This document shows positions 7,083 to 62,640 of a DNA stretch of 64,000 bases, in pieces. Position 1 is the stretch's first letter. Each line of letters starts with the position of its first letter. The DNA is taken from contig QANY01009387.1 of NCBI GenBank assembly GCA_003255025.1, forward strand, positions 1,240,001 through 1,304,000, written 5' to 3'. Both the position numbers and the translations under genes were made by a program. This stretch comes from Datisca glomerata. Lineage: Eukaryota > Streptophyta > Magnoliopsida > Cucurbitales > Datiscaceae. Below the pieces are notes generated by a model that was not told the origin of the DNA, did not search any database, and saw only the letters and a list, made by a program, of their open reading frames with translations.

Positions 7083-7104
7083 TTATTTTTTGGGCTTTTT
7101 TTTT

Positions 7105-7170
7105 TGTAAAAGTCAACCCATACGTTAACTATTTTGTAAAAATCAACTTATACACTAATTTTACTTACTC
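7105..7170 (+). repeat. Left terminal inverted repeat of the MULE
   Basis: This stretch contains TTAACTATTTTGTAAAAATC. It aligns over about 65 bases with the reverse complement of 15368-15441, which has TAACTATTTTACAGAATTC. Differences are scattered but the register holds, as expected for old terminal inverted repeats. Confidence 0.65.
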
Positions 7171-7544
7171 AGATCTTTGACCATTTTTCTTTCACTTTTT
7201 CACTTTTTTCCTTATTGTCCTTCTTACAAGTTGTCCAATCAAATGTCATGGTTTACTCACTTAACATTCAAAACCTCCATACCTACTCCATTTCTTCTTC
7301 TTCATTTTTCATTTTTTCTACTTCTTCGTCTTCGTCTTCTTCTCCGTCTTCTTCCTTCTTCCTGCAACAACAAGGGATTGTTAGTTCTTCTTTCATAAAC
7401 ATGTATAAGTTTTATTTTCTTCTTTCTAGAAAGTTTAAATTTTTATGAGTTTTTCATGTTCATGAGTTTTCTGAGAATATTTATTTATTTTCTTCTTTCT
7501 GAAATGTTGTTTGAGGTTCATTTATTGTACATGATCACTACAAG

Positions 7545-7985
7545 ATAATAGTGTAATGCAAATGAGGTCTACACGAGTACTACACGAGCCTCGTATAGTC
7601 ACCATGTAGACTACAAGCAGGTACATGATCCTTGTTAGACCTCGTGTACACTACACAATCATCGTGTAGTGCATCAGAAACTTTTTCAGCGATTCACGAG
7701 CATCATGTAGCATTTATTACACTACACGATCATCATGTAGTGTCATCGTGTTGTGTACATGATGACCACATGATGATTGTGTACTCTTCGTGTACACTAC
7801 ATGATCTTCATGCGATCCTCGTGTACACTACACGATCATCGTGTAGTCCCCGTGTACATTACACGATTATACTACACGATCATTGTGTAGTACACTCGTG
7901 ACACTACACGATCATCATGTGGGACTTATTACCGTACACGATGCCCGTGAAGGTCTCGTGGACACTACACGATGGCTATACGAAT
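7545..7985. repeat. Motif array 1, upstream of mudrA
   Basis: Dense TACACGA and TCGTGTA sites occur with variants such as TACATGA. Clean pairs read TACACGATCATCGTGTA or TCGTGTACACTACACGA, where motif starts are 10 bp apart. The array fills the leader between the left end and the transposase gene. Confidence 0.9.
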
Positions 7986-8055
7986 CATTGTGTGATATTC
8001 CATTTTATTATATATTCTTCTTGTATTGACTTCTTTCATTGATGTATATATAGAT

Positions 8056-10985
8056 ATGTCTGAAGTTTAAATTTTTGTAATCCATGATGGAGATTGGGTG
8101 AAAAATGGTACAACATGGTCTTTTAGTGGAGAGAATACCAAATTATTGGAGATATCAACTAACTGCACTTACCACGCGCTATTGGATATATTGCATGAAG
8201 AACTCCAAATAGACCCCTCAAAGTATGATATGTCCATCAATTTTCTTTATAGAAGTCATGTCATCTGCCCTCCTGCTGAAATTTTAAAGAATAGAGATTT
8301 ATAGTTCTTTGTTGAGGAGAATGTATCAGAATCACTTCGAACCCCATTATTTGTAAGTACCAAGCCTAAATTTTTTCCATTTCAAAACTCGGTTCCTGAA
8401 ACCACACTGTCACAATAATCTCGGGTTCCTGAAACTACAGGGTTTTATCAAAGTTGGGTTCTTGAAACACAAATTTCACAACAACCTCTACATGAAAGCA
8501 TTCCTCGCTTTGAGAGTGTTAATCATTTTAAAGGGAACTATCATTATGATGATGTTTTTGGTCATGACGAGAATAATGTTTTCGAGGATGAGGTGTTGAA
8601 GTTGTTGGTGATGATGATGGTGATTTTGATTAAGGGGCGTATGATGATGCAATCCGTGGAGATGACCATGATGTAGCCATCTGTGGAGACAAACATACAA
8701 CAATTCCATACTTGAATATTGGTCATGAGCCCGAGACCACTTGTCCATTGTCATCACAACCTGATTTGAACGAACAACGTGTTGGGTCCAGTGAGCAATG
8801 GTCTGATTTGAATCAACTTATAACAGACACAATAAATATGGATGATTTGTACAGTGATAAAGCCGAATTACTTAAGGTTACTCGTATGATGGTCTTCCAG
8901 AGAAATTTTGAGTTTCAGAATTTCAAGACAAATCAGTCAATATTGGTACTTGTATGTGTTGATAAAACATGTCAATGGAGGTTACAGGCCATGCAATTGA
9001 AAAATTGTCCATACTTCAAAGTTACAAAGTTCATCAATACACATACATACACATTTGAAGTATTGAGACATGAACACCATCAGGCTACATTTTCATTGAT
9101 TGGTCATTCTATAAGGACCAAATACACGACTGTCGGACGTATGTCTAAGCCAAAAGACATAATTGAAGATGTTATGCTTGATTTCGATGTCAACATAGGT
9201 TACCATAAGGCATGGAGGGCTAGGAAATATGCTTTGGAATTAGTTCTAGGGTTACCTAAAGACAACTATAGGATACTCCCAGCATAGTGTAACATGTTAG
9301 AATAAAAAAAATCCAGGTACTTATTTTTTATTTTGCCATCATAATGTCTACACGAGCCTCGTGTAACCATCGTGTAGTACACGATTGCTACACGGACCTC
9401 GTGTAGTCATCATGTACACTATTTTTCCATCATAATATCTACACGAGTACTACACTGACCTCGTGTATACATCGTGTATACTACACGATGGGTACAATGA
9501 CCTCGTGTAGCATGATGGTACACGGAACTCGTGTACACATCCTGTACACTATTATTACTATCATAATGTCTACACGAGGACTATATGAGCAATACACAGA
9601 TCTCGTGTAGTCATCGTGCGGTCTACATGATGCCTACACTGACCTCGTGTAATCATGGTGTAGTCTACACCATGGTTACACGGAACTCGTGTAATCATCC
9701 TATACACTATGTACTCTGCCGATTTTAATACAACAATACTAGATACTTTTCAGGGACAACAACACACGTAGATATCGATGAGCATGATCATTTTAAATAT
9801 TTTTTCATGGCTCTTAGACCCTCTGTTCATGGATTTTTCAAATGTATACGGCCTCTCATTGTTGTTGATGCAACCGCCTTAAAAGCCAAATACAAAGGGG
9901 TATTATTTGTTACAACAGCAAATGATGGGAACAACCAAGTATATCCCATTGCATTTGGAATTGCAGAATCAAAAAAGAATGATTCATGGGAATGATTCTT
10001 CCGTAAACTTCACGATGTAATCGGTATTCCAGAAGACTTGGTGTTTATATCCGACATGTCCACAAGTATACTAAATGTTGTATATGTTGTCTTTCCCAAT
10101 GCGCTTCATGGAGCTTGCATCTTCCATATGGGCCAAAATATCAAATCAATATATAAAAAAGGAATATGCGGTAGCATTGTTTTTTAAAGCAGCAAAGGAA
10201 TAGCATCGATCAAAATTTGATCGGCTGATGACTCATTTTACATATGCATTTCTAGATATCTCACAATACGTGTCAGTGGAGGAAGTTGAGAGGTGGCCAC
10301 GTGCTCATTTTGATGGAAGGCGATACGATATAATGACTACAAACATCGCGGAATGTTTGAATGGGGTTTTGAAGGATTCTAGAAAGCTTCTCATTACATG
10401 CCTTATAGAACATATCTGTGACATGTTACAAATGTGGTTCTATGAATTACGGATGACTGCTTCTCAAGTCACCTCGCAGATGACAGATTAGGTTGGGACT
10501 GAGCTTAAAAAGAGGCATCTTACATCACGATCACTATCATTGTTTCCTTCGGACATCCATGAGTTTCGTGTCGCTGGTGGGGGTAGGGAAGTAGTGGTAA
10601 ACTTGCATCCTAAGACTTGTACGTGCCAAGAATTTGATCTCGATCAAATTCCCTGCAAGCATGCGTTGGCTGCATGTTGGCAACACAATATTTTCGCCTA
10701 TAGTATGTGTTCGAGGTTCTATAAAAATGAGGCTTTAATTGTTGTGTATGCGATAAAAATACATCCTCTAGGAGATCAAGCAAATTAGGTCATCAACTAG
10801 AAGATTTATGTAAAGGCGGTATTGCCACCTATAACGAGGCGGCAAAATGGCAGACCTAGGACAGAGAGAATTCCATCCAAAGGTGAGGAAGTAGTGAGAA
10901 GAAAGTACAAACATTGTGGGTAAATTGGCCACATTCGACAAACGTGCAGAAATCTAATTTATCTATCTCAACGGGATGACCATGC
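8056..10985 (+). pseudogene. mudrA-type MULE transposase
   Basis: Broken transposase gene. 8080-8304 holds the N-terminal region (HDGDWVKNGTTWSF; LQIDPSKYDMSINFLY). 8712-9316 holds the MuDR DNA-binding domain (KVTRMMVFQRNFEFQNFK; CVDKTCQWRLQAMQL), ending in YRILPA and an NKKNP-like run. An intron at 9317-9753 (GTACTT...TTTTCAG) joins CCAG to GGACA, giving the expected PGT junction. 9754-10490 holds the MULE transposase domain: VVDATALKAKYKG, ISDMSTS, the C-x2-H of CIFHMGQN, and TNIAECLNGVLKD. 10540-10788 holds a SWIM zinc finger (CTCQEFDLDQIPCKHALA). Near 10910 is a CCHC-like knuckle (KYKHCG..GHIRQTC). Stops at about 8071, 8304, 9292, 9992 and 10490, and a frame slip in the A-run at 9303, disable it. 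Its normal role is cutting and joining the element ends. Confidence 0.85.
9347..9715. repeat. Motif array 2, inside the mudrA intron
   Basis: TACACGA/TCGTGTA sites fill the intron at 9317-9753 between clean splice signals. Examples are TACACGAGCCTCGTGTA (10-bp offset) and TCGTGTAACCATCGTGTA (11-bp offset). The neighbouring exons have no such sites. Confidence 0.9.
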
Positions 10986-11081
10986 CACTTAAATATAAAT
11001 AATGACCTTTGTAAACTTAAATTAAATATTAATGTAGAAATATACTTGTGTTTGTTATTTAATAATGTCATAAAGTTTAAC

Positions 11082-11817
11082 TAGTCTCCATGAAGCCTAC
11101 ACGATGCACGTGAAGTCATCGTGTAGGCTACATGAAGCCTACATGATGCCCGTGAAGTAATCGTGTAGGCTACATGAACATTACATGATGATGTGAAGTC
11201 ATCGTGTAGGCTACATGAACACTACATGATGTCTGTGAAGTCATCGTGTAGGCAACAAGAACACTACACGATGCGCGACACGAAGCCTTAATGATGCTTG
11301 TAAAGTCATCTTGTAGGCTATAAAAAGCCTACGTGATACTCGTGAAGTCATCGTGTAGGCTACAAGAAGCCTACATGATGCCCGTGAAGTCATCATGTAG
11401 GTTACATGAAGCTTACACGATTCCCGTGAAGTCATCGTGTAGGCTACATGAAGCTTACACAATGCCAGTGAAGTCATCGTGTAGGCCATATGAACATTAC
11501 ACAATGACATGAAGTCATCGTGTAGGCTACATGAACATTACATGATGTCCATGAAGTCATTGTGTAGGCTACATGATGTCTGTGAAGTCATCGTATAGGC
11601 AACATGAAACCTACATGATGCATGTGAAGTCATCGTGTAAGATACATGAAGCCTACAGGATGCTCGTGAAGTCATCGTGTAAGGTATACGAAGCCTACAT
11701 GATGCCCGTGAAGTCATCATGTAGGCTACAAGAAGCCTACAAGATACCCGTAAAGTCATCGTGTAGGCTACACGATACCCGTGAAGTCATCGTGTAGGCT
11801 ACATGAAGCCTACACTA
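11082..11817. repeat. Motif array 3: 42-bp hairpin satellite between the two genes
   Basis: A tandem array about 17 units long. Each 42-bp unit carries CCTACACGATG, a 10-base spacer close to CACGTGAAGT, then CATCGTGTAGG: two 11-bp arms in perfect inversion in the best units. Motifs therefore recur every 21 bp in alternating orientation. The array lies between the 3' ends of the convergent mudrA and DUF1985/Ulp1 genes. Units differ by point changes and a few shortened copies (for example near 11190 and 11500). Confidence 0.93.
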
Positions 11818-12687
11818 AACATATAGTAACCAAAAACATTCAACAACATATAAGAAAATTGGACATTAAAAATACAAGTTATAAGAATCCATAATTCACA
11901 ATTTGAAGGTGTAAAACTAAAAAGTTTGTTACGAAAAACACAGTTCTGAATTCTTAAAATCATGAGCTTAAGCGTAAAAATCAATAAAATATATCCAAAT
12001 TATTTCGGTACAACTATGTCACGTGCAAATAACTCAATTGCAATTCATCTTCGATATTCTGGTATTTATTGTTGAGTTATTTCTTAGAGGTTTTTCCCAT
12101 ATGCAAGGGTTTCGACAAACTTAAGGATGGATGCCCCAAAACCGAACCTACAAAATGCATGAAATGTAAAAACACAATTACATAATATGTATGAAATTTT
12201 AAATGGACTTTCAAAAAAATGTATATTCCACTTACCCATTCTCTTGTTGTGGAGACTTCATGATTTCAAATTTCCACTCATCTTTGGGTTTAACCTCTTT
12301 TCTATTCTCATAAACATTCATCATTTGAAGTAGCTGGGCGACAAACTTTATAAAATGTTTCATTATTTCAATGTACAAAGAACGTTGATATGACGTGTTC
12401 ATGGAGTTATAGATACGAATACAGTGGCCATTCAAATCAAGCTCAACCGCAATCCAATGACTTTGGTTCACATTCGTTGAAAAGATAACATTGTCAGACT
12501 ATTCCCAGCTCCTTCCAAAATTCGTCTGCAAGCCGAGGACTTGGTACCAGAGTGAATCATCAACGTCAATATCCTAGCACGCGAGATCTTGCTCAAACTC
12601 TTCCATTCAGCCAGACAGGTTCTCCTGTAATGTCATGATAAAAAATTTGAATCTTCAAGTCAATAAAAAATGGTCATGAAGACTATA

Positions 12688-12735
12688 TGAAGTCTACACG
12701 AGGCCTTCCACGTTGCCTCATGTAGACTACGACGT
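12688..12735. repeat. Motif array 4 (short), within the minus-strand gene
   Basis: A few TACACGA-like sites (CTACACGAGGC, CTCATGTAGAC) lie between Ulp1-like coding blocks, probably in an intron. Confidence 0.6.
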
Positions 12736-13077
12736 GCTATATGAAATATGCCTCATTAAGTTCAAAAACAAATCTTACTTACTTGCAGAATCAAATCACT
12801 AAAAAACATTGATTCTAATATGAGGGTTGTAGTCTTGCAAATCCCTCCTCATGAGCTCCAAGTATGCATCGATATGCTGCAATATAATAAAGATTAGTTA
12901 AGATATTTATATTTCTTTAAAATACCACATTAAAAAAGATTATAAATAACTTCTTACATTTGATTCAAGCCATTCATAAGGTGAAGAGACTAGTTTTTCT
13001 GAACTAGATAACGTCAACGGTGTAAAATTCAATGTCTACTTTCTCATTCTTGTACAACGTAATTACAGATCAAAATT

Positions 13078-13188
13078 AGGTACACGATTGGTTTACTACA
13101 CGGTGGCTACTTGATGTCAGTGTAACCATCGTGTATAATATATGATAGCTATACGAGTTCAGTGTAACCATCGTGTATATTACAATAT
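13078..13188. repeat. Motif array 5, probable intron of the minus-strand gene
   Basis: Sites such as TACACGATTGG, ATCGTGTATA and CATCGTGTATATT lie between the Glu-rich linker and the Ulp1-like region. Confidence 0.75.
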
Positions 13189-13367
13189 TCTTCTCTTCTA
13201 TTTTTTCAATGGCCTCCTCGAACCTCTTCCTCATCTTCTTCCTCTCCTCCTGCTTTTCAATGATCTCCTCCTCCTCATTAGCTTCCTCTTCTAGTGGAAA
13301 AGGTGATTGAGGAGGTATCGATTAAAATTACATGTAATATTAAGCAGATAAACCAGAATAAGGGTGA

Positions 13368-13548
13368 CTACATGATAGGTACACGAACCTCATATAGTCA
13401 GTCACCTTGTAGACTACATGATCGTTTACACGGACCTCGTGTAGATTACACGGACCTCGTGTAATCATCGTGTAGACTACACGATCAGTTACACGGATCT
13501 TGTGTAATCTACACGAGATCAGTGTAGCCATCGTGTAGTCTACGCGAG
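13368..13548. repeat. Motif array 6, probable intron of the minus-strand gene
   Basis: Dense sites: TACACGGACCTCGTGTA twice (10-bp offset), ATCGTGTAGACTACACGATC and GATCAGTGTAGCC. The array lies between the DUF1985 part and the Glu-rich linker. Confidence 0.85.
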
Positions 13549-14767
13549 GTACGTGTTCAAGAAGAAGAAATGTAGAAAATGATTTTGACCATACCTTTTC
13601 TCCAACTCATGATCTCCAGTAGCTTTTTCTTCTTCCTCATCAATGGGGACCAAGGAAAGAACTGTCAACTAAAAATGCAAGAAATATAAATTAGTATATG
13701 TGAAAGTAATATAAATTAACATGTCAACATAATTCACCAACATACATTCTCTTTCGAAAAAAATTCTTTTTGGAGATTTTCAACGAGTACTATCATGGTC
13801 GGACACCACTTGAGAATCCTTGACACCTTGGTCGAAACCTGGTTACCATGCAAACTACCCACCAAGGGGATAATTTCAAATACCCATGCCTATTTAAACA
13901 AAAAAGAGTAATTCACTATTCAACATATAAATAATTCAATACATCACTACATAGAATTAAATAAATTGTACGTGGAAGGCAAATGGACATCTATTGAGTG
14001 AATATCCATGAACAGCAGTGGGGGATTTTTGTGCTTTTTTGTTTTTTTCTTGATCTTTTAAGATTACCAAAAACAACATTTGTATTATTGACAACAAATA
14101 GTGATTTCATATTTTTGGAAAAAGAGAACTCTCCCCACAGATATTGGTTGAACGTTTTAAGGTCGTCAACCAAAATCATACATCTCTTCTCAATTAGAGT
14201 ACGGTTCTCCTTCCTCAAAAGAAAATGCTCTAGTAAATAAATTAGAGTCATCTTGACCCGATCAGAATGTGCCTTATATTCAAAGTTTTAAACTTCTCAT
14301 CCAACTCAGCCATGGTCATTTATTCAGTTTTGAGAAAATAAATCAGAGAGTCTGTTAAGGGCACGGGTCTTCTTCTCATCCCGGGCTTCACCGAACTTTA
14401 GTCCGGTCATCAACGAGAACTCCTTCTTGGAGAAGCACAATATTTCCTCAGTGACAAGAAACCAGATTTCCTCCTCAGATGGAATGTCGTTGACATATTC
14501 AGCTTCCGTGGCCAGCACCTAGTGGCAGACAGTTGCTGAAAACTTCATGGCTAGGAGATCAAGAAGATGACCAAAGCATGTCTCCCTAAATAAGAACATT
14601 TGCGGAGTTATCAGCTTGGTCTTGATAACCTATATGCAGTTGGTATTGTACTTTGCATTGACCCTTGCCTTTGAAATTCTGTTAACGTCATGGACGTATC
14701 TTAGTTGCATCTTTGATAAAGCCATAACCTGTAGAAAATTCAAGGTAAACATAAGATCAGAAAATGC

Positions 14768-14856
14768 ACATGATACTCGTATAGTCATCGTGTAGACTAC
14801 ACGAGGGGTACACGACCCTCGTGTAGACTACATGAGGGGGACACGTTCATCATGTA
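14768..14856. repeat. Motif array 7, upstream of the minus-strand gene
   Basis: Sites such as CATCGTGTAGACTACACGAG and CCTCGTGTAGACTACATGAG lie just before the ATG at 14725 in the sense of that gene, so in its leader or first intron. Confidence 0.8.
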
Positions 14857-15367
14857 ACCTAGAAAAAAACACTCAGAAATCCATAAGAAGAAAAAACACT
14901 TAGAAACCCAGGAAAAAAATATTAGAAACAAAAAATAACCTTTGTTGTGATTCAGACATCCACAAAAAACAGAAATGCAGAAATCTAGAAAAAGCCTAAA
15001 AACCTAGAAAAAACACTTAAAAAACTCAGAAAAAACATCTGAGAATCCAAAAAATAAAAACTCAGAAACCCAAAAACTTAGCTTGTTGTGATTTCTTGTT
15101 GTGGGAGACGAAAACTCAAAGATTTACAGAGAGAGAGAGATGTTGCGACTTCGAGAGAGGGAGAGATGTTGCGACTTCGAGAGAGGGAGAGATAGTAACA
15201 GTAAGAGATTAATGAAGGAAATACAAGTGAGGTGCACGAAGATGTGGGAGTTTCGTGTAATGAAAATGTGTAATCATCATCATTTTTTCAAGCTGTCGTT
15301 TGAAATTCGGCAAGGGCTTTTTTGTAACTTCATAAGCTAATTTTGAATTTAAAGTGGGCCAGGGGTC

Positions 15368-15441
15368 ATGATAAGCAAAAGTTAGTATAGATGTCGAATT
15401 CTGTAAAATAGTTAGTGTAGGAGTTTACTTTAGCAAAATAC
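15368..15441 (-). repeat. Right terminal inverted repeat of the MULE
   Basis: The reverse complement aligns with 7105-7170. Between this repeat and the minus-strand gene lies a 26-bp direct repeat (units starting TGTTGCGACTTCGAGAGAGG at 15141 and 15167). Confidence 0.65.
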
Positions 15442-15451
15442 ACTTATTTTT

Positions 15452-16500
15452 AAAGAGAAAATTAAGGATTTAATCAAGTTTAAGTTTTACTTTTGTATAA
15501 TGTCCTTTTTTTGTTATTTTGCACATATGGCCGAAATGGAGAAAAGAAAAATCAGATAGTTAAGATTCTCTTTGTTATTTTACCTTAATACCATTATTTT
15601 AATTTATTTGTTTTAGATTTGTTTTATTTTTTTTCACACACTTCTTCTGCGAGTCTTTCCTTCTTCAAGTTTTATCCTTCTTCACATCTTTCCTTTTTCT
15701 TTTTCACAAATTTCACGGATTTCACTATGAATTATAGATTCAAACGTCTTCTAATTTGCAGCTTCTTCTTTCATTCGTTGTTTCTTCCATTCGTTATTTC
15801 TTCTTTTCAGATTTACATCTTTTTTTCAATTTTTGATTTGCAACTTTCCATTCGTTATTTCATGACGTCCATGAACTTCACTGCCATCGAGTTAAGATCG
15901 TCGAGACTAGATCTGGTAGCGACTTCCCTGACCGCCGCGACCAGATCCGGTCCCAACGTCCTTCACCGCGATTATATATAAAAATGTCGAATGGTATAAA
16001 AAAATATACTATATATATATACTACGATATACTAATAGAGTATAAAAAAATATATCATAGATATACTGCGATATATTGATGGTATATAATAATATACTAG
16101 TATATTATTATATACCATAGAGTATATATCTATCAATTACGTACATTGTCTGCGAGGGTTACGCGAGAGTCATTTATTAGTGAGTGCAATTTTATATATT
16201 TACTATATTTTTTAGATTTTAAAGATAAAAAATTATAAATTTCGGCTTCATTTTCTTTTTTCTTTTTCTATAATGGCATATTCCGTTTTTTAAATGCATG
16301 AGTCTATTGGGTCAGTTATTTAATTTCCTAGTTAATGGATTATGCTCAGGTTATGTAATGGTAAGTGGTTTCGTGGCCTATTTATGTTTGCAGTTATTCA
16401 ATGAAAGGCACCGAAGTTGATATTCAATTGCAAAATCACTGTGTAGGCCTGGTAACCGCGAATTACCACAAACATTCATCTACTTCTGTTACACAGATTT
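15452..16500. other. AT-rich DNA, no gene seen
   Basis: T-rich sequence, then about 15990-16135 a dense run of TATACTA/ATATATAC steps with local inversions. A 120-codon open frame at 15619 is low-complexity Phe/Ser/Leu and I do not believe it is coding. Confidence 0.5.
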
Positions 16501-47316: not shown

Positions 47317-49640
47317 GAACCCTGCAAGTATTCACGGGTTAACAAATCTGATAAAGAACTTTGTTCACCTTTGATATATTCAATATCAAAATCAAATACG
47401 GATAAAATACTTTGCCAAGAAGCAAACACCTGTTTAGAGGCAAGGTTTTGTACATCTTTCTTAAATATCTGTTTCGCAGCAGAGCAATTAACTCTTATTA
47501 AAAAAAAATTGGTTTAAAAGATCATTCTGAAATTTTAAACACATTTGACAACAGAAAGACATTCCTGTTTAAAAGTTGGTAATTTAATGTTGGTCCCTTC
47601 TAAACTCTAGATGTAAAACGGAGAAGTTCTTATTTCTGATTGTTGAGATTATACTGTTTAAGTATCTCACCATATCCCTGATTAGGGCATCAGTTTCTAT
47701 TATCTTTTTCCATTGAGGATTCGGTAAAGATAAACAATACAAATGTTTGATTTTATCTTTTATCTTTCTTACTGCGAGGGTATGTTCTGTTGTCCAAGGT
47801 AAAAGATTCTTGTTAAGCCTGGTATAAAGGATTGAAGCATTGTGATAGCTATGGATAATAGTCTCCAATATAATTAGGACTACCTATAAATCGTTGTAAT
47901 TGGGTGTTATCTTTTATTTCGTCTGGAAATTTAGATGCACACTCTATACTTCTGTTAGTTGGAATAATAGTTCCATTAGAAATATTATGTCCAAGAAATC
48001 TAACTTATGTTTGGAAAAGTTTCATTTGTGAAGCTGAAATTACTAATCCATTTATGATAATAACATGTTTGAATATGTTCAAATGTTTAATATGTTGATC
48101 AATAGATGATAAGAAAATTAATACACCATCAATATAACAAATAATGAATTATGTATAAGGATTAAATATATCATTCATAATATGCTGGAATTCAGAAGGA
48201 CAATTTTTTACACCGAAGGGTAAAACATTCCATTCATAATGGCCAAATGGTACTATAAAGACAGTCTTATACCTATCATGTTCATTTGGATTTGCCAAAA
48301 TCTTGATTTAAGATCAAATTTAGAAAAAAAAATTACAGAATCATGTAATATATCTAAAAGATCTTTCTTATTTGGGATATGATACATTATCCATTGTAAG
48401 GCATCATTAAGAGGTTTATAGTTTATCACTAACCTAGCTGCTCCTCTTTCCATTTTTGCATTCTTATAAACATAAAATGTTGTACAACTCTAAAGGGAAT
48501 GATTAGGTCTAATTAATCATTCTTGTAAAAGGGATTCGATTTCTGTTTCACAAATATCTAAATATTCCTTCTTCATTTAACTAGGTCTAGATCTAGTGGA
48601 AATATTTCTTTCATTAAAATCCTTATTGTAAGGAAGTGATATGATATGTTTTTTCCTATTCCAAAAAGCATTTAGGAATATCACTGCATATTTTAGTTTG
48701 GAATTCTTTTAAAATTATTATAATTTTATTCTGTATTGAAAGTTGTTGAATTCTTTGGTCTGTAGTAAGAAATTGAATTTCTTTTTAATATAATTTATCT
48801 GTTTTTCTTTATTCTGGAAAAAAGATTTAATCTTATCAAGCTCTTTCATATAAGGTGTTGTTATAAATTCAAATATTATGTCTTTGTTATTAATATTAGT
48901 ATGGATACTTAAAGTATCAATTCCAGTTATAAGCAATAATAAGCAAAGAAAATGAGTGCCTAAGATAATGCTTCGTGTCATGTTTTTAATTAAAACAAAT
49001 ACAGTAGCTAGGCAAACACCTTGATTACAGATAAGCACTTTAGGAAGCTTAAACTCTATACGCATAGAGTTACCACTAGCACTGGTTAAAGATTGAGTGG
49101 TTTTCTGAAGAAAAAAAATTGTAGGAGTTAATCCTTCTTGAATGCAGTTCATATTAGCACCACTATCAACATGGACAATGGCATCTTTGATAATAAAAGT
49201 GATTCTGGTATACCATTTGTGAAAAGAGACTTTATTCATTAAAAAATATTGGTTATCTTCAGGTTGGGTAGAAGAAGATTCGGGTTTTTCTGCAGGAGTT
49301 TTACCTTTAGAAAATAATTGTTGTTTAATATTACTAAGATCCTGGAAAATAATTTGGTTAGCAGTTTGAAGCTACTTTATCCCAGTTTTTAAAATATTTA
49401 CTTCCATTTTTAAATCTAAAATATTAACTGGTTTTTCAATAGTAGAAGTATCTTGCATACTGTAATTTTTTGTAGGAAGAATTTCTTGTTTGGTATGATT
49501 TTGAGAACAAAGTTCAAAAAATTTCAATTTCATTTTGGGATCATTTATCTGGTCAGCTAGATTAAGCATGGTTTGTTGAGTGTCAGTTAAAACATTAAGG
49601 CTAGGTTGTCCAAGGTCAAGACCATTCATCTCAACAATAG
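47313..49640 (-). pseudogene. Pararetrovirus protease-RT-RNase H region, copy A
   Basis: On -: a Gln/Asn-rich segment with NGLDLGQPSLNVL (49629 onward), then the aspartic protease with VHVDSGANMNCIQ near 49150-49180. RT blocks follow, including GAARLVINYKPLND (near 48430) and FSKFDLKSRFWQIQMN (near 48300). In the catalytic box near 48138-48121 the second Asp of Y-x-D-D is Gly. RNase H starts near 47720 (KKIIETDA) and the frame ends LTREYLQGS then TGA at 47315-47313. Frames change several times, so the polyprotein is not expressible. Confidence 0.82.
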
Positions 49641-49861
49641 CCTTCCAATAATTAGCTTCAGTTAACAGGTTACAAGTTTTGGAAGAGCAACAAGGCTCAG
49701 GATTTACGGAAGAAGAAGATGCATGGTTAGAATATAATTCAACTAAATCATTAACTGAACTAGATTCAGAAGTATTATCTTCATTAGAAAGCCAATTTAG
49801 AATTTGTTGTTGAGCTTTTTCATCAAGAGAAAGTTCATTTAATTTTGCTTAAGTTTTGATT

Positions 49862-50990
49862 TACACTATTTAGCGTAGTGTCCTGTTGTTCCACTTTTGT
49901 AACATTTTATTTAGGATTTATCTTTTTCAGGATAAGATGTTCTTTTATTGGTTTTCCTTCTAGGTTTATCTTGATAATTAGAAGGAGGTATTTTTTTAGA
50001 AGAGTGTTTTTTATAAGGCTTATGGATTCTGGAAGTAGAAGGTTATAAGATTTTTGTGTCATAAGCAAACTGATCACAAAATTCTCCTAATTCTTTTATG
50101 TTGGTGAGATTCTGGTGCTTCATCATTTGTTGTAACTTCATGTCATCGCATCAGGATAAACCTTCTTCAATGACAATATCAATAAGAAGACCATAAGAAT
50201 ACTATTCGTACAGGATATCCATATGATCATGTCTATCTTTTAATCTCTTTCTAACTTTTTTGGCAAAGAGGCTAGGAAGTCCATCAATGAATTTTGCCTT
50301 CCAATGTTCACGGTTAACGTCAGATCTTTGCATGACTTTCATCAGGAAAACATCTTTATACCACCTAAAAAGGGTTAAAGATGGACATCTAAGGTTCTGT
50401 AAGAGTTATCTATGTCTATCAGTATTAATAATTCTTGGTCCTATGAATTGATGTAGAATAGCTTGAGCTAAGGTATAGCAAGCAACTTCAGTTTTAGTCT
50501 CAATCCTAGTGAGAGAATCAACATTAATCTTAAAGGAATTTAAAATTTTAGTTCTCTGGGTTTCATTGAGGCAGTTATCCCACCATCCATAAAGAATTCT
50601 TGTAAAACGATTAACCAAAAATCTACAAATTTGATGGTCAGTGTTATCATTATATTTACAAACAAACGTATACACTATCGTGTGATGTATGGCTTCAAAT
50701 ATTTGATATTTTGTTTTACCATATATGTTCCATAAGTAGATGGTTTTACCATGATAAGATTTCTGAGTATGAAGGAAATCTTCTTCATACAGGATATCCT
50801 GAGGAGTAGGTCTAGGATAATAACACCGACATGGTCCTGTTAAAGCCATACGGGTTATAGGTTTCCTAGAATAAGAAAGTTTATTAATAGTATCATCAAA
50901 AAAATTCTGAATGTCTAAGACGTGGGAAAGAGAGTAATCTTCTGTTTCATCTTCATTTCCAGGTGGAGGTTGGTCTTGATTCATCATATT
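49862..50990 (-). pseudogene. Pararetrovirus capsid region with zinc knuckle, copy A
   Basis: An open stretch on - from 50987 to 50406 begins MMNQDQPPPGNEDETEDYSL and contains YYPRPTPQDILYEEDFLHTQ, SYHGKTIYLWNIYG, and DNTDHQICRFLVNRFTRILY. The frame then breaks and resumes to a knuckle at about 49915-49875 where one Cys is Ser and a stop intervenes (CYKSGTTGHYAK). The same blocks appear in copies C and D. It would form the virus core; assignment is by position before the protease and the knuckle. Confidence 0.75.
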
Positions 50991-50999
50991 TATTTATCT

Positions 51000-54235: not shown

Positions 54236-55380
54236 AATCTTTTTCGACATATTAATGATTATATTTCTTTTAAATTATGCATACATGGTCGCCACACAAC
54301 ATGCCTGAAATCTGCTCTAAATTCTATCATTGTAGTAGCTAATACAATAGTTTCACCTTCTAAAACAACCAAACTCATCGCTTATCAAGATGTTAAAGAA
54401 GCTTTGATAGATGGACTAAACCCAAAGATAAACCAAAAACAATTTATAAAATTGGAACTTTTCATTTTACCAGTAGAAAAATCATCAAAGCAATTGAACA
54501 TGATATTCCTTTACAGAACAATGATGATATTATCTATTTATTACATGTTCAAGATTTATATCCTTTTATGCAAAAATATAAATATGTGCATATAGGACTT
54601 GTTCAAATAGCTTTAAAGCCTTTGACTTTACTTGGTCAAAACAACTAGTATTCAGTATACCCTTGGAGACGGTCGTTGCCTCAACTGGAAAGCATCCCTT
54701 ATAGGAGCCATTGAAACCAGCCTTTCACATGGACCAGTATATTTTAATATCCATCTGAATCTGAGTATTGCCCTTTCTGATAGTAATTTATCTAAAGTTC
54801 TAGAACTTAGAGTGACTTCTCATGGATATAATTATCTTCTAGGATCTGTTCCTTTTGCTATTCTTTTCAGGATTCATCTTAAAGTTCTTTCCACCTTAGA
54901 TCCTTACACCAAAACACAAAGCGAACAAGGACAAACCATCTTTATTGATACTAACTTTTTCAGTAGCCAAGTAGCTATCCCTAGGATGATACCTTGGGAA
55001 GAAATTACATTTCCAGAAAAATGGCAAATCCCTAATGTTGTACCCATCAGACATATTATTAGGCAATCCCTAGAAGATGTTATCCAGACTCAAGGAGGTA
55101 ATATATACCTCAAATTCCAGAAACCCTTAACTAGAACCCTTTCTAGTACTAGTTATAGGAGTATTCCACCCTATAATGTTGATTTTCCTTAATCCTCTCG
55201 TCAATCTATATCTGAACCTATATGATCTGATCAATCCTCTAATCCTTCCGTCAAAGATACTACTCCTGAAGATTATATTAGGGGTATTCATATACCCGAT
55301 AGTCAAATAACTCATGGAGTTTATGAAAACAGAAGGCCTAATAGTCCAACCACTAGTGATATGCAATTCAATATTTAATG
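54233..55380 (+). pseudogene. Pararetrovirus movement-protein region, copy C
   Basis: The first part (54233-54595) opens inside the primer site and carries LIAYQDVKEALIDG. A frame change leads to a 186-codon open stretch (54632-55192): DGRCLNWKASLIGAIETSL, SHGPVYFNIHLNLSIAL, FRIHLKVLSTLDPYTK, and VAIPRMIPWEEITFPEKW. It is the best preserved copy of this region in the window. A stop at about 55190 precedes the Ser/Pro-rich linker. The role is inferred from position and the 30K-type layout. Confidence 0.68.
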
Positions 55381-55966
55381 GATTTTTTTCCAAATAGTGA
55401 TTTGAGAAAAAAGCTTAACCAGGATTTTATGCAAGATAAATATCAGAAATTTCGAAGGTGGTATTTTAAATCCCATACTCCTAAACAGTTAGAAACCTTA
55501 AAAACCAATATTATTATCATTTACATACTAATCAGTATATTAGATCTTTCCCTAATTGGTATCACGATTTTGCTTCTAAACTGCAACTTCATGATGAACA
55601 ACAATTGAATATATTAACAGGAATCTAAAGAAGTTGGACAACCACTAGTGGTAGGACTTTTCAATCCATCCATCATCCACCTTTATCTATAGAACTCGCT
55701 CCTAGTAATGAGAATCTCAAACCCTTAGCTATCAACCTTTATGTTGAAATACCTGAGAAGACAACCCAGTAGGAATCTATTAAAGTTAGAGACATTTTAC
55801 CTTTAACTAAGCATGATAATTATACTAGACTGTAGGAAACCAGTTAACAAGGATTGAAGACCAGATGTAGGGGATACATGATAAATGTCAGGCTACACCT
55901 AAACCGAAAACACTTGATCTCCAACGCGTTACCATAAAACCACCTCTTGAAGTCATTAACTTCAAT

Positions 55967-57136
55967 ATGCAATCCAGTAAAAAAGATGAAAACTTTATGA
56001 CTACTCTGATTGATAAAATAAGATATTTAAAGATTAATCAACCAGAGTCATCAGGACAAATAAATATGATGAATCAGGAAGATCTATCTTTACATGCCGA
56101 CCAGGAAGATTATTCGCTTTCCCAAATATTAGACATCCAGAAAAACTTTGATGACACTATCAATAAACTCTCTTATTCTAGAAAACCTACTACCCGTATG
56201 GCATTAACAAGTCCTAGTAGATACTATTATCATAGACCTACGTCCCAGGACATTTTGTATGAAGAAGATTTTCTTCATACTAAAAAATCTTACCATGGAA
56301 AAACAATCTATGAATGGAACATAGATGGTAGAATAGAATATCAAATCGTTGAGACCATACATCATATGATCATGACGTGTCTATTTGCAAGCAAAATGAT
56401 AATATTGATCACCAAATCTGTAGGTTTCTTGTCAATGGTTTTACCGGTATTCTTAAAGAATGGTGGGATAATTGTCTCACTGAAACCCAAAGAAATGAGA
56501 TTTTAAATTCCTTTAAGATTAATGTTGACCCTCTTACCAGAAAGCAAAACTGAACATGCTTGCTATACCCTAGCACAAACCATTTTACATGACTTTGTCG
56601 GACCAGGAATTATAAATACCGACTGACATAGAGAAGTTCTCCAGAATATTAGATGCCCATCTTTAACCCATTTTAGGTGGCATAGATATGTTTTGCTAAT
56701 GAAAGTCATGCAGAGATCTGACGCTAACAGTGAACATTGAAAGGTAAAGTTCATTGATCGACTCTCTAGCCTTTTGTAGAAAAAGTTAAAAAGAAACTTA
56801 GGTATAGGCACAATCAAATTAATATCCCTTACAACCAGTATTTTTATGGTCATATTATTGGTATTGTCATTGAAGAAGGATTCTCTCTATGCAATAACAT
56901 GAAGCTATAACAGATAATGAAACACCAGAATCTCACTAACAGAAAAGAATTAGGAGAATTTTGTGATCAGTTTTCCTATGACGCAAAAAACCCAGTATCC
57001 TTCTACTTCCAGAACCCATCCGTCTTATAAGAAATCCAAATCTTCTAAAAAACACTCTTCTAGAAAAATACCTCATTCTAATGATCACGCTAGACCTAGA
57101 AGGCAAACCAGTAAAAGGGCATCCTATCCAAAGAAA
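55967..57136 (+). pseudogene. Pararetrovirus capsid region, copy C (before the solo LTR)
   Basis: A 179-codon open stretch at 55967-56506 includes a coiled N-terminal part (TTLIDKIRYLKINQPE), then YYYHRPTSQDILYEEDFLHT and SYHGKTIYEWNIDGRIEYQ. Frame-shifted remains continue to a Lys/Ser-rich basic segment (KKSKSSKKHSSRK, about 57020-57070). The zinc knuckle that should follow lies beyond the solo LTR at about 59383-59430 (CYKCSTTGHYAN). Confidence 0.75.
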
Positions 57137-60059: not shown

Positions 60060-61180
60060 TGATTTACACTTATTAGCTTAATGTCATGTCGTTCCACATT
60101 TGTAACATTTGAGTTGGGATTTATCCTTTTTAGGATAAGATGTATTTTTACAGGTTTTCCTTCTAGGTCTATCTTGATAATTAGAAGGAGGTTTTATTAT
60201 AAGATTGTGATTTCTTATAAGGCTTATGAGTTCGGGAAGTTGAAGGATACTGAATTTTTATGTCATAAGTATACTGATCACAAAATTCTCATTTCTTTTA
60301 TGTTGGTTAGATTCTGGTGTTTCATCATCTGTTGTAACTTCATGTCATTGCATAGAGATAATCCCTCTTCAATGACGAATCCAATTAGATGACCATAAGA
60401 ATACTGTTGGTAAGGGATGTCCATTTGATCATGTCTATCTCTTAATTTCTTTCGAACCTTTTCGGCAAAGAGGCTAGGAAGTCCATCATTGAACTTTGCC
60501 TTCCAATGTTCATTGTTAGCTTCGGATCTCTGCATGATTTTCATCAGGAAAACATCTTTACACCACCTAAAATGGGTTAATGATGGACATCTAAGATTCT
60601 GGAGAAGTTCTCTATGTCTATCTGTATTTATAATTCCTGGTCCTACAAAATTGTATAGAATGGCTTGAGCTAAGGTATAACAAGTATCTCTGGTTTTAGT
60701 CTCAATCTTAGTAAGAGGATCAACATTAATCTTAAAGGAATTTAAAATTTTAGTTCTCTGAGTTTCCTTAAGGCAGTTTTCCCACCATCCTTCAAGAATT
60801 CATGTAAAACCATTAACCAAAAATCTACAGATTTGATGGTCAGTGTTATCATTTTGTTTATAAACAGACGCATACGTTATCACAGGATGTATGGTTTCAA
60901 AGATTTGATATTTTATTCTTCCATCTATGTTCCATTCATAGATGGTTTTTCCATGGTAAGATTTTTTAGTATGAAATAAATCTTCTTCGTACAAAATATC
61001 TTGGGGCGTAGGTCTAGGATAATAGTATCTAGCAGGTCCTGTTAGTGCCATATGGGTAGTAGACTTAGTAGAATAAGAAATTTTATTGATAGTATCATCA
61101 AAGTTTTCTAGTTATCTAAGATTTGGGAAGGAGAGCATTCCTCTTGATCAGCAGGTAAAGATGGATCTTCCTGATTCATC
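60060..61180 (-). pseudogene. Pararetrovirus capsid region, copy D
   Basis: On -: RYYYPRPTPQDILYEEDLFH, SYHGKTIYEWNIDG, and DNTDHQICRFLVNGF (61051-60800), then IMQRSEANNEHWKAKFNDG and LPSLFAEKVRKKLRDRHDQ (60544-60410). A basic segment and a knuckle remnant lie near 60105-60065. Stops and frame changes occur between blocks. Confidence 0.72.
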
Positions 61181-61188
61181 ATATTTAT

Positions 61189-62640
61189 TTATCTTGATGA
61201 CTCTGGTTGACTAATCTTTAAATCTCTTATTTTGTCAATCAGAGTAGTCATAAAGTTTTCATCTCTTTTACTGGATTGTATCTTAAAGTTAGTGACTTCA
61301 AGGGGTGGTTTTATGGTAACAGGTTGGAGATCAACTGTTTTAGGTTTAGGTGTAACCTGACATTGATCATGTATATTTTCAATCTGGTCTTCTATTCCGG
61401 TTAACTGATTTCCCACAGTCTGGAGGAAAAGGTTAGTACAATTGTTCTGTTTGGTTAAAGGTAAAATATATTTAACCTTTACTGGTTCCTGTTGAATGGG
61501 TTTTTCTGGTATTGCAACATAAGGATTAATAACTAACGATTTGAGATTCACGTTACTAGGAGCGAGCTCTATAGATAAAGGTGGATGATGTATGGATTGA
61601 AAAATTCTACAACTAGTGGTTGTCCAACTTCTTTGGAAACATGTTAACATGTTTAACTGTTCTTCATTATGCAACAAAGTTGCAATACCATTTAGGAAAG
61701 TATTTAATATACTGATGCTTATTTAAATGAAAATAATACTTGGTTTTTAAGGTGTTAAGCTCCCTAGGAGTATGAGATTTAAAATACCATCTCTTAAATT
61801 CCTAGTATTTATCTTGCAGAAAATCCTGGTTAAGTTGTTTTCTCAAATCATTATTTGGAGAAAAATCCATTAAATATTGAATTGCATAAAATTAGCGGTT
61901 GGACTATTAGGTCTTCTATTTTCATAAACACCATGAGGTATTTGATTATCAGATATAAGAATACCCCTAATATAATCTTCAGGAGTAGTATCTTTGACTG
62001 AAGGATTAGAGGATTGATCAGATCCTATAGGTTCAGATATAGATTGACGAGAGGATTCTGGAAAATCAACATTATAGGTTGGAATACTCCTATAACTAGT
62101 ACTAGAAAGGGTTCTAGTTAAGGTTTTCTGGATTTTGAGGTATATGTTACCTCCTTGAGTCTGAATGACATCTTCCATAGATTGCCTAATGATAGGTCTG
62201 GCAAGTACAACATTAGGGATTTACCATTTTTTCTGGAAAAGTACTTTCTTCCCAAGGTATCATCCTAGAGATAGCTAATTGTCTACTAAAAAGATTAGTA
62301 TCAATAAGGGTTGTGTGTCCTTGTTCACTTTGTTTTATGGTATAAGGATTTAAGGTAGAAATAACCTTAAGATGAATCCTTTAAAGAATAGAAAAAGGAG
62401 CAGATCCTGGAAGATACTCATAACCATGAGAAATCATTCTAAGTTCTAAGAACTTAGATAAATTACTGTCAGAGAAAGCTACACTTAGATTAAGATAAAT
62501 ATTAAAATAAACTGATCCATGCGAAAGGTTGGTTTCAATGGCTCCCATAAGGGTTCTTTCCAGCTGAGACATCTACCATCACGAAGGGTACATTGAATAC
62601 TGGTATTTTGACCAAGTAAGGTCAAATGTTTAAATGTTAT
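61189..62640 (-). pseudogene. Pararetrovirus movement protein and linker, copy D
   Basis: On -: an ETNLSHGSVYFNIYLNLSV block (62550-62490), ISHGYEYLPGSAPFSIL, then VIQTQGGNIYLKIQKTLT (62165-62110). A 162-codon open stretch (61677-61189) carries VGNQLTGIEDQIENIHDQ and a Lys-rich coil. It parallels copy C and is broken by several stops. Confidence 0.7.

Follow-up and report, generated by a model that had tools for sequence, protein, structure and literature searches.

A Mutator-like element (MULE) of 8352 bp was identified at 7092-15443 of the 64-kb window, the term used here for the whole stretch of DNA that was analysed. The element carries a mudrA gene on the + strand, a gene on the - strand whose product resembles VANC21 of Arabidopsis, and arrays of the short word TACACGA (TCGTGTA on the other strand) that are set in helical register in its non-coding DNA. 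It is best read, with a probability of roughly three in four, as an autonomous Mutator element of VANDAL/KIU-like type that was inactivated long ago, from a flowering plant (probably a eudicot) and with a VANC-type target word of its own. The proposed VANC-type reading is based on the non-coding placement of the word, the lattice formed by its copies, the phase shared by both orientations, the antisense DUF1985/Peptidase_C48 gene, the match to VANC21 and the parallels with VANDAL21 and the KI-MULEs. The points against it are the broken state of both genes, the failure to find a second copy in the sequences searched, the mixed orientation of the words, the weak phase of the exact sites in two groups and the presence of terminal inverted repeats (TIRs), unlike the KI-MULEs. 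An earlier reading of the DNA (hereafter the sequence-only reading) had proposed a candidate VANC-type anti-silencing system; the damage to both genes, the inverted terminal repeats and the phasing of the words to the helix go beyond it.

Limits and genes of the element

The element is bordered by a probable 9-bp TSD, with the left copy TTATTTTTT at 7083-7091 and the right copy TTATTTTTA at 15444-15452. The two copies agree at 8/9 positions, with one mismatch. As their placement was picked by eye and the window is AT-rich, with equally good matches to the left 9-mer at 60 of the 48400 positions that follow, the TSD is considered moderate evidence. Imperfect TIRs are located at 7102-7167 (left) and 15372-15438 (right), pairing over 61 nt at 74%, with a local alignment score of 46 against a maximum of 28 among 2000 shuffles. 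By eye, the left TIR seems to be built from two imperfect head-to-tail repeats, each about 29 bp long. Near the right end, 15128-15193 is taken up by a clean tandem repeat free of the motif, with 2.5 copies of a 26-bp unit matching at 97%.

The mudrA transposase pseudogene (8056-10956, + strand; limits by eye) starts with the ATG at 8056 and ends at about 10956. Pfam matches include a MULE domain in which an in-frame stop separates two pieces (E 2.7e-6, above the cut-off, and 4.6e-6, just below it), a SWIM finger (E 4.1e-11) and a weak DBD_Tnp_Mut domain (E 1.3e-3, below the cut-off). A CCHC-like end is visible in the alignment with relatives, its first Cys being replaced in the present copy, and the read-through contains 9 stops. 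The gene has an intron with GT and AG ends (9317-9753, + strand) which encloses one of the motif arrays, and the aligned protein relatives run continuously over the junction. A protein search with the mudrA read-through identified 44 homologues at E <=1e-3. The best of these has 45% identity over 99% of the searched part, and therefore no close relative was found. The named homologues are plant proteins, mostly from eudicots (Melia, Prunus, Citrus, Diospyros, Acer, Cannabis and others), with two from Asparagus; judged by such distant relatives, the host seems to be other than Arabidopsis. Searches with the mudrA alignment in viral contigs and in prokaryotic genome contigs gave 28 and 22 pattern-matching stretches, respectively, and no confirmed relatives in either.

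The VANC-like pseudogene (12087-14725, - strand) is composed of several small exons, with a DUF1985 region in two frames (about 14021-14518), an acidic linker and a Ulp1-like end (about 12087-12624), and its read-through carries 5 stops in addition to frameshifts. Pfam detects DUF1985 in two pieces lying in different frames (E 2e-6, below the cut-off, and 2.5e-9, above it) and Peptidase_C48 (E 2e-5, above the cut-off), and the joined read-through gives E-values of 9.1e-18 and 1.2e-5 for the two domains, respectively; DUF287 was not reported by Pfam in this read-through, and an NCBIfam scan returned 0 families. The Pfam domains thus bear out two statements of the sequence-only reading, namely that DUF1985 and Ulp1-like domains belong to one antisense gene and that this gene and mudrA lie antiparallel in a single element.

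The best match of the read-through among the 177635 distinct chain sequences of solved structures is VANC21 (9lnj/9lnk; E 0.0013, residues 81-211), and the only other match at E <=1 is a splicing factor (0.29). A two-sequence profile built with a Cuscuta DUF1985 protein retrieved VANC21 as its sole match (E 1.6e-4), which favours the VANC relationship proposed in the sequence-only reading; the match covers the DUF1985 part only. With the Ulp1 part as the only query, the search of solved structures yielded no significant match (best E 0.4). The position of the Ulp1 Asp is occupied by Asn in an alignment to Dub2 that falls short of significance (E 0.82), and the Cys position has apparently, by eye, been lost in the present copy; since the gene is a pseudogene, these residue losses are uninformative on the intact family. 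A protein search with the VANC-like read-through produced one match, a Cuscuta campestris DUF1985 protein (E 1.1e-6, 26% identity over 33%), and a second search with the read-through and Cuscuta pair found the same protein only. Both searches scored only the 7997 candidates with most words in common, and our guess is that acidic low-complexity words crowded this candidate list. Structural work on VANC21 is cited as unpublished in a 2022 meeting report, and no paper on the finished structure (9lnj/9lnk) turned up in a literature search.

Scattered broken pieces resembling an endogenous plant pararetrovirus were observed elsewhere in the window, at 48718-50993 (-), 54626-56506 (+) and 60278-61722 (-). 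The domains, which were detected in 4/5 pieces scanned, are an aspartyl protease (E 4.9e-6), DUF7746 (5.5e-21), a movement protein (1.9e-12) and a caulimovirus coat domain (1.6e-11). An Rfam scan of the window gave 0 matches.

Distribution and helical register of the TACACGA word

A total of 64 copies of TACACGA/TCGTGTA occur in the window, compared with 3.58 expected and a maximum of 7 among 100 shuffles. Of these, 62 lie in the element (26 on the + and 36 on the - strand) and 2 in the 55.6 kb outside it, and TACACGA also ranks first, with these same numbers, in an unbiased count of 7-mers with no preset word. Under a coding mask that represents our own reading of the exons, including introns of the - gene inferred by eye, 61/62 sites fall in the 4213 bp of non-coding DNA and one (9123) in the 4139 bp of coding DNA; the related word TACATGA has 31 non-coding copies and 1 coding copy. 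The packing of the word into non-coding DNA noted in the sequence-only reading was thus confirmed, and its number of seven non-coding segments is correct if the single exact site at 12695 is counted as one segment.

Array 1 (7570-7972; 14 exact sites) is located upstream of mudrA, array 2 (9349-9693; 15 exact sites) inside the mudrA intron and array 3 (11098-11796; 16 exact sites), most of which is made up of 42-bp tandem repeats, in the spacer separating the 3' ends of the two genes. Three segments lie in introns of the - gene inferred by eye: 12695-12724, with one TACACGA (12695) and one TACATGA (12718); 13081-13177, with 3 exact sites; and 13380-13537, with 7 exact sites, where the intron has a good donor and a poor acceptor. 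The segment at 14788-14825, with 4 exact sites, is directly upstream of the ATG of the - gene, and lone TACACGA sites are present at 9123 and 15253.

The lattice contrast at 10.5 bp, calculated for exact and near sites together, exceeds 200/200 dinucleotide shuffles in 6/6 array segments (arrays 1, 2 and 3, and the intervals 13070-13190, 13360-13560 and 14770-14860, each with 0/200 shuffles reaching the observed value) and in 0/6 controls, for which 18, 96, 107, 193, 80 and 189 of 200 shuffles reach it. The density of sites matching at 6/7 letters or better is one in 11.5 to 17.3 bp for the arrays and one in 100 to 396 bp for the controls. High motif density and helical spacing, both invoked in the sequence-only reading, are therefore found in this element. 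Helical spacing of the words, together with gain and loss of domains, is reportedly described for eudicot VANC proteins in an EMBO J 2022 abstract.

The distances between exact sites over the whole element (7 to 150 bp, 187 pairs) have a phase coherence R of 0.50 at 10.5 bp, against a mean of 0.07 and a maximum of 0.26 for 2000 jittered site sets. The phase is clear in the 5' segment (R 0.58, P 0.0005), the intergenic segment (R 0.88, 0/2000), where R is inflated because the jitter test assumes independent sites, unlike tandem repeats, and the segment upstream of the - gene (R 0.98, P 0.0015, from 6 pairs only). The exact sites are weakly phased in the mudrA intron (R 0.34, P 0.008, best period 10.2) and in the two introns of the - gene pooled (R 0.45, P 0.035, best period 10.9). 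With the exact sites left out, similarity to TACAYGA peaks at 10/11, 21, 31/32, 42, 52/53 and 62/63 bp from the exact sites, reaching 3.2 to 4.3 of 7 letters versus 2.2 to 2.9 of 7 away from the peaks in the range of 7 to 66 bp. With the word centre as reference point, pairs in the same and in opposite orientation differ in phase by no more than 0.5 bp, and therefore the bound face seems to have its centre there. TA steps (R 0.03-0.11) and AA/TT/TA (R 0.02-0.08) have no 10.5-bp phase, the motif centres having R 0.30-0.96; one phase for both orientations and none for TA steps would be in keeping with a protein attached along a single helix face.

A search for a three-word array pattern in viral contigs gave 0 matches. 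A whole-word literature search for TACACGA/TCGTGTA gave one paper, which to judge by its title concerns a human gene, a result which does not prove that the word is unpublished as a VANC target.

Origin of the arrays and rival explanations

TRF reports a 42-bp repeat of 17.5 copies at 11082-11814, the intergenic array being the sole long tandem array among the segments. As judged by eye from the consensus, the 42-bp unit corresponds to four helical turns, its slots being filled by a single TCGTGTA, TACATGA twice and a fourth copy of poorer fit. Ungapped inverted matches connect 9468-9510 with 13509-13551 (43 nt at 86%) and 13503-13547 with 14788-14832 (45 nt at 82%), and 2 to 9 14-mers are common to the members of 5/15 segment pairs; some copying between the segments is likely in view of the inverted matches. 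The tandem structure of array 3 and these resemblances are what would be expected if the arrays were functionless minisatellites spread by slippage and conversion. However, 10/15 pairs have no 14-mer in common, among them all five that include array 3, and the same word and 10.5-bp register recur throughout, in both orientations, with the intervening coding DNA free of the word, which renders a minisatellite origin unlikely. Overall, a constant word and register combined with differing spacers are the outcome expected of selection for protein binding.

Subterminal repeats of the CACTA and Ac/Ds elements are binding sites of their own transposases, and the arrays may similarly be taken for sites of the transposase of this element, with the DUF1985/Ulp1 gene unrelated to them. 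The proximity of array 1 to the left end agrees with such a role, but it is made distinctly unlikely by the location of most sites in the introns and the middle spacer, with one exact site from 14826 to the right end, as the element ends are where a MULE transposase would be expected to work. Binding by a host transcription factor is very unlikely: although the word contains CACG, the type of core read by NAC-like factors, its copies lie in introns and between 3' ends and not in promoters alone. The agreement of the period with the helical repeat would also be seen if the 10.5-bp repeat represented bent or nucleosome-placing DNA and not docking sites. The lack of phase in TA steps and AA/TT/TA (R 0.02-0.11), as opposed to the phased motif centres, speaks for docking sites and leaves bent DNA extremely unlikely.

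The ratio of observed to expected CpG is 1.09 in the arrays and falls to 0.59 there when the exact word is left out, the values for the main exons and the flanks being 0.61 and 0.53, respectively. The element contains 90 one-letter variants of TACACGA, 41 of which are the two CpG transitions (TACATGA 32, TACACAA 9). These fit a decay of methylated C once the system was no longer active, and TACATGA may in addition be a true second word. Deamination should hit both strands, and 32 versus 9 is thus lopsided for deamination alone; since 18/32 copies of TACATGA lie in the 42-bp array, duplication accounts for part of the excess. TACATGA may, by analogy, be a second word type comparable with the C- and T-types described for the VANDAL21 word (PMC5735166).

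Known systems, proposed mechanism and significance

The kind of system is already known, the differences from the targets of VANC21 and VANC6 being the word itself, the CpG at its core and the occurrence in both orientations. VANDAL21 (Hiun) resembles the present element as a MULE with a DUF1985 gene, dense short non-coding words and tandem repeats, and its VANC21 protein is described as occupying dense short words in the introns, intergenic and terminal non-coding DNA (PMC5735166). The VANDAL21 word was correctly given in the sequence-only reading as YAGTATTAY, unlike TACACGA (PMC5735166); it is without CpG and occurs in one orientation, whereas the word here contains CpG and is present in both, and the element here has in addition a Ulp1-like end and TIRs. 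A single orientation within an array is a trait of VANDAL21 that is not known to be general among VANC targets. VANDAL6 and VANDAL8 with VANC6 likewise possess a short word that is specific to the family and lies within non-coding tandem repeats, but their words, AGTTGTCC and AGTTGTAC, lack CpG (PMC5735166). The Kaonashi KI-MULEs have a ULP domain gene antisense to mudrA, as does this element, although those of Arabidopsis are given as non-TIR elements (PMC2528002). TIR, mudrA and ULP are combined in one element in the ULP-carrying TIR-MULEs of melon and grapevine, for which the account of these elements in PMC2528002 does not describe word arrays or anti-silencing.

The VANDAL clade is characterised by a 9-bp TSD, no TIR or a TIR of 46-174 bp, SWIM and CCHC, and a PMD and/or DUF in half of its members, so that some of its elements do have TIRs (PMC6446971). 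The corresponding traits here are the TSD (8/9), the TIRs, SWIM, the CCHC-like end (by eye, first Cys replaced) and the DUF, most of which are common to other plant MULE groups. VANC genes with Ulp1 are stated in a review to recognise words in KIU-carrying VANDALs, the precise function of the Ulp1 part of such elements being unknown according to the same source (PMC13317346), and the mode of action of VANC21 after binding was still open in 2017 (PMC5735166). Further literature on the topic is available (PMC10398659, PMC8756742, PMC12844716, PMC12312487).

A VANC-like working is well supported by the anatomy of the element, and its steps can be proposed by analogy with VANC21 and VANC6. The intact antisense gene would once have made a VANC-like protein with a DUF1985 part and a Ulp1-like part, which would have bound TACACGA, and perhaps TACATGA too, at about one word per helical turn along a single face of the DNA. 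The bound sites would be those in the introns, the intergenic spacer and the upstream regions of the element itself, with the many in-register contacts conferring specificity for its own family. Binding would then cause a local loss of DNA methylation, local for CG and wider for other sites, followed by re-expression of mudrA and mobilisation of the element.

A more speculative and rather doubtful possibility is that the element represents a VANC lineage with a CpG-bearing target word, read in either orientation as a one-sided lattice of about one word per turn, in which binding and methylation form a two-state switch. As the removable mark can sit inside the word, a site could be either bound or methylated but not both, which would generate such a switch. 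If so, silencing would in time erode the sites, with which the share of CpG transitions among the variants may be compared. VANC anti-silencing has been experimentally proven in Arabidopsis according to the literature cited, and the present element provides a concrete word, register and protein type elsewhere, making the methylation-sensitive reading of a CpG-bearing target testable. Since the lattice test needs DNA alone, it could help find VANC target words in other genomes, the protein not being needed.
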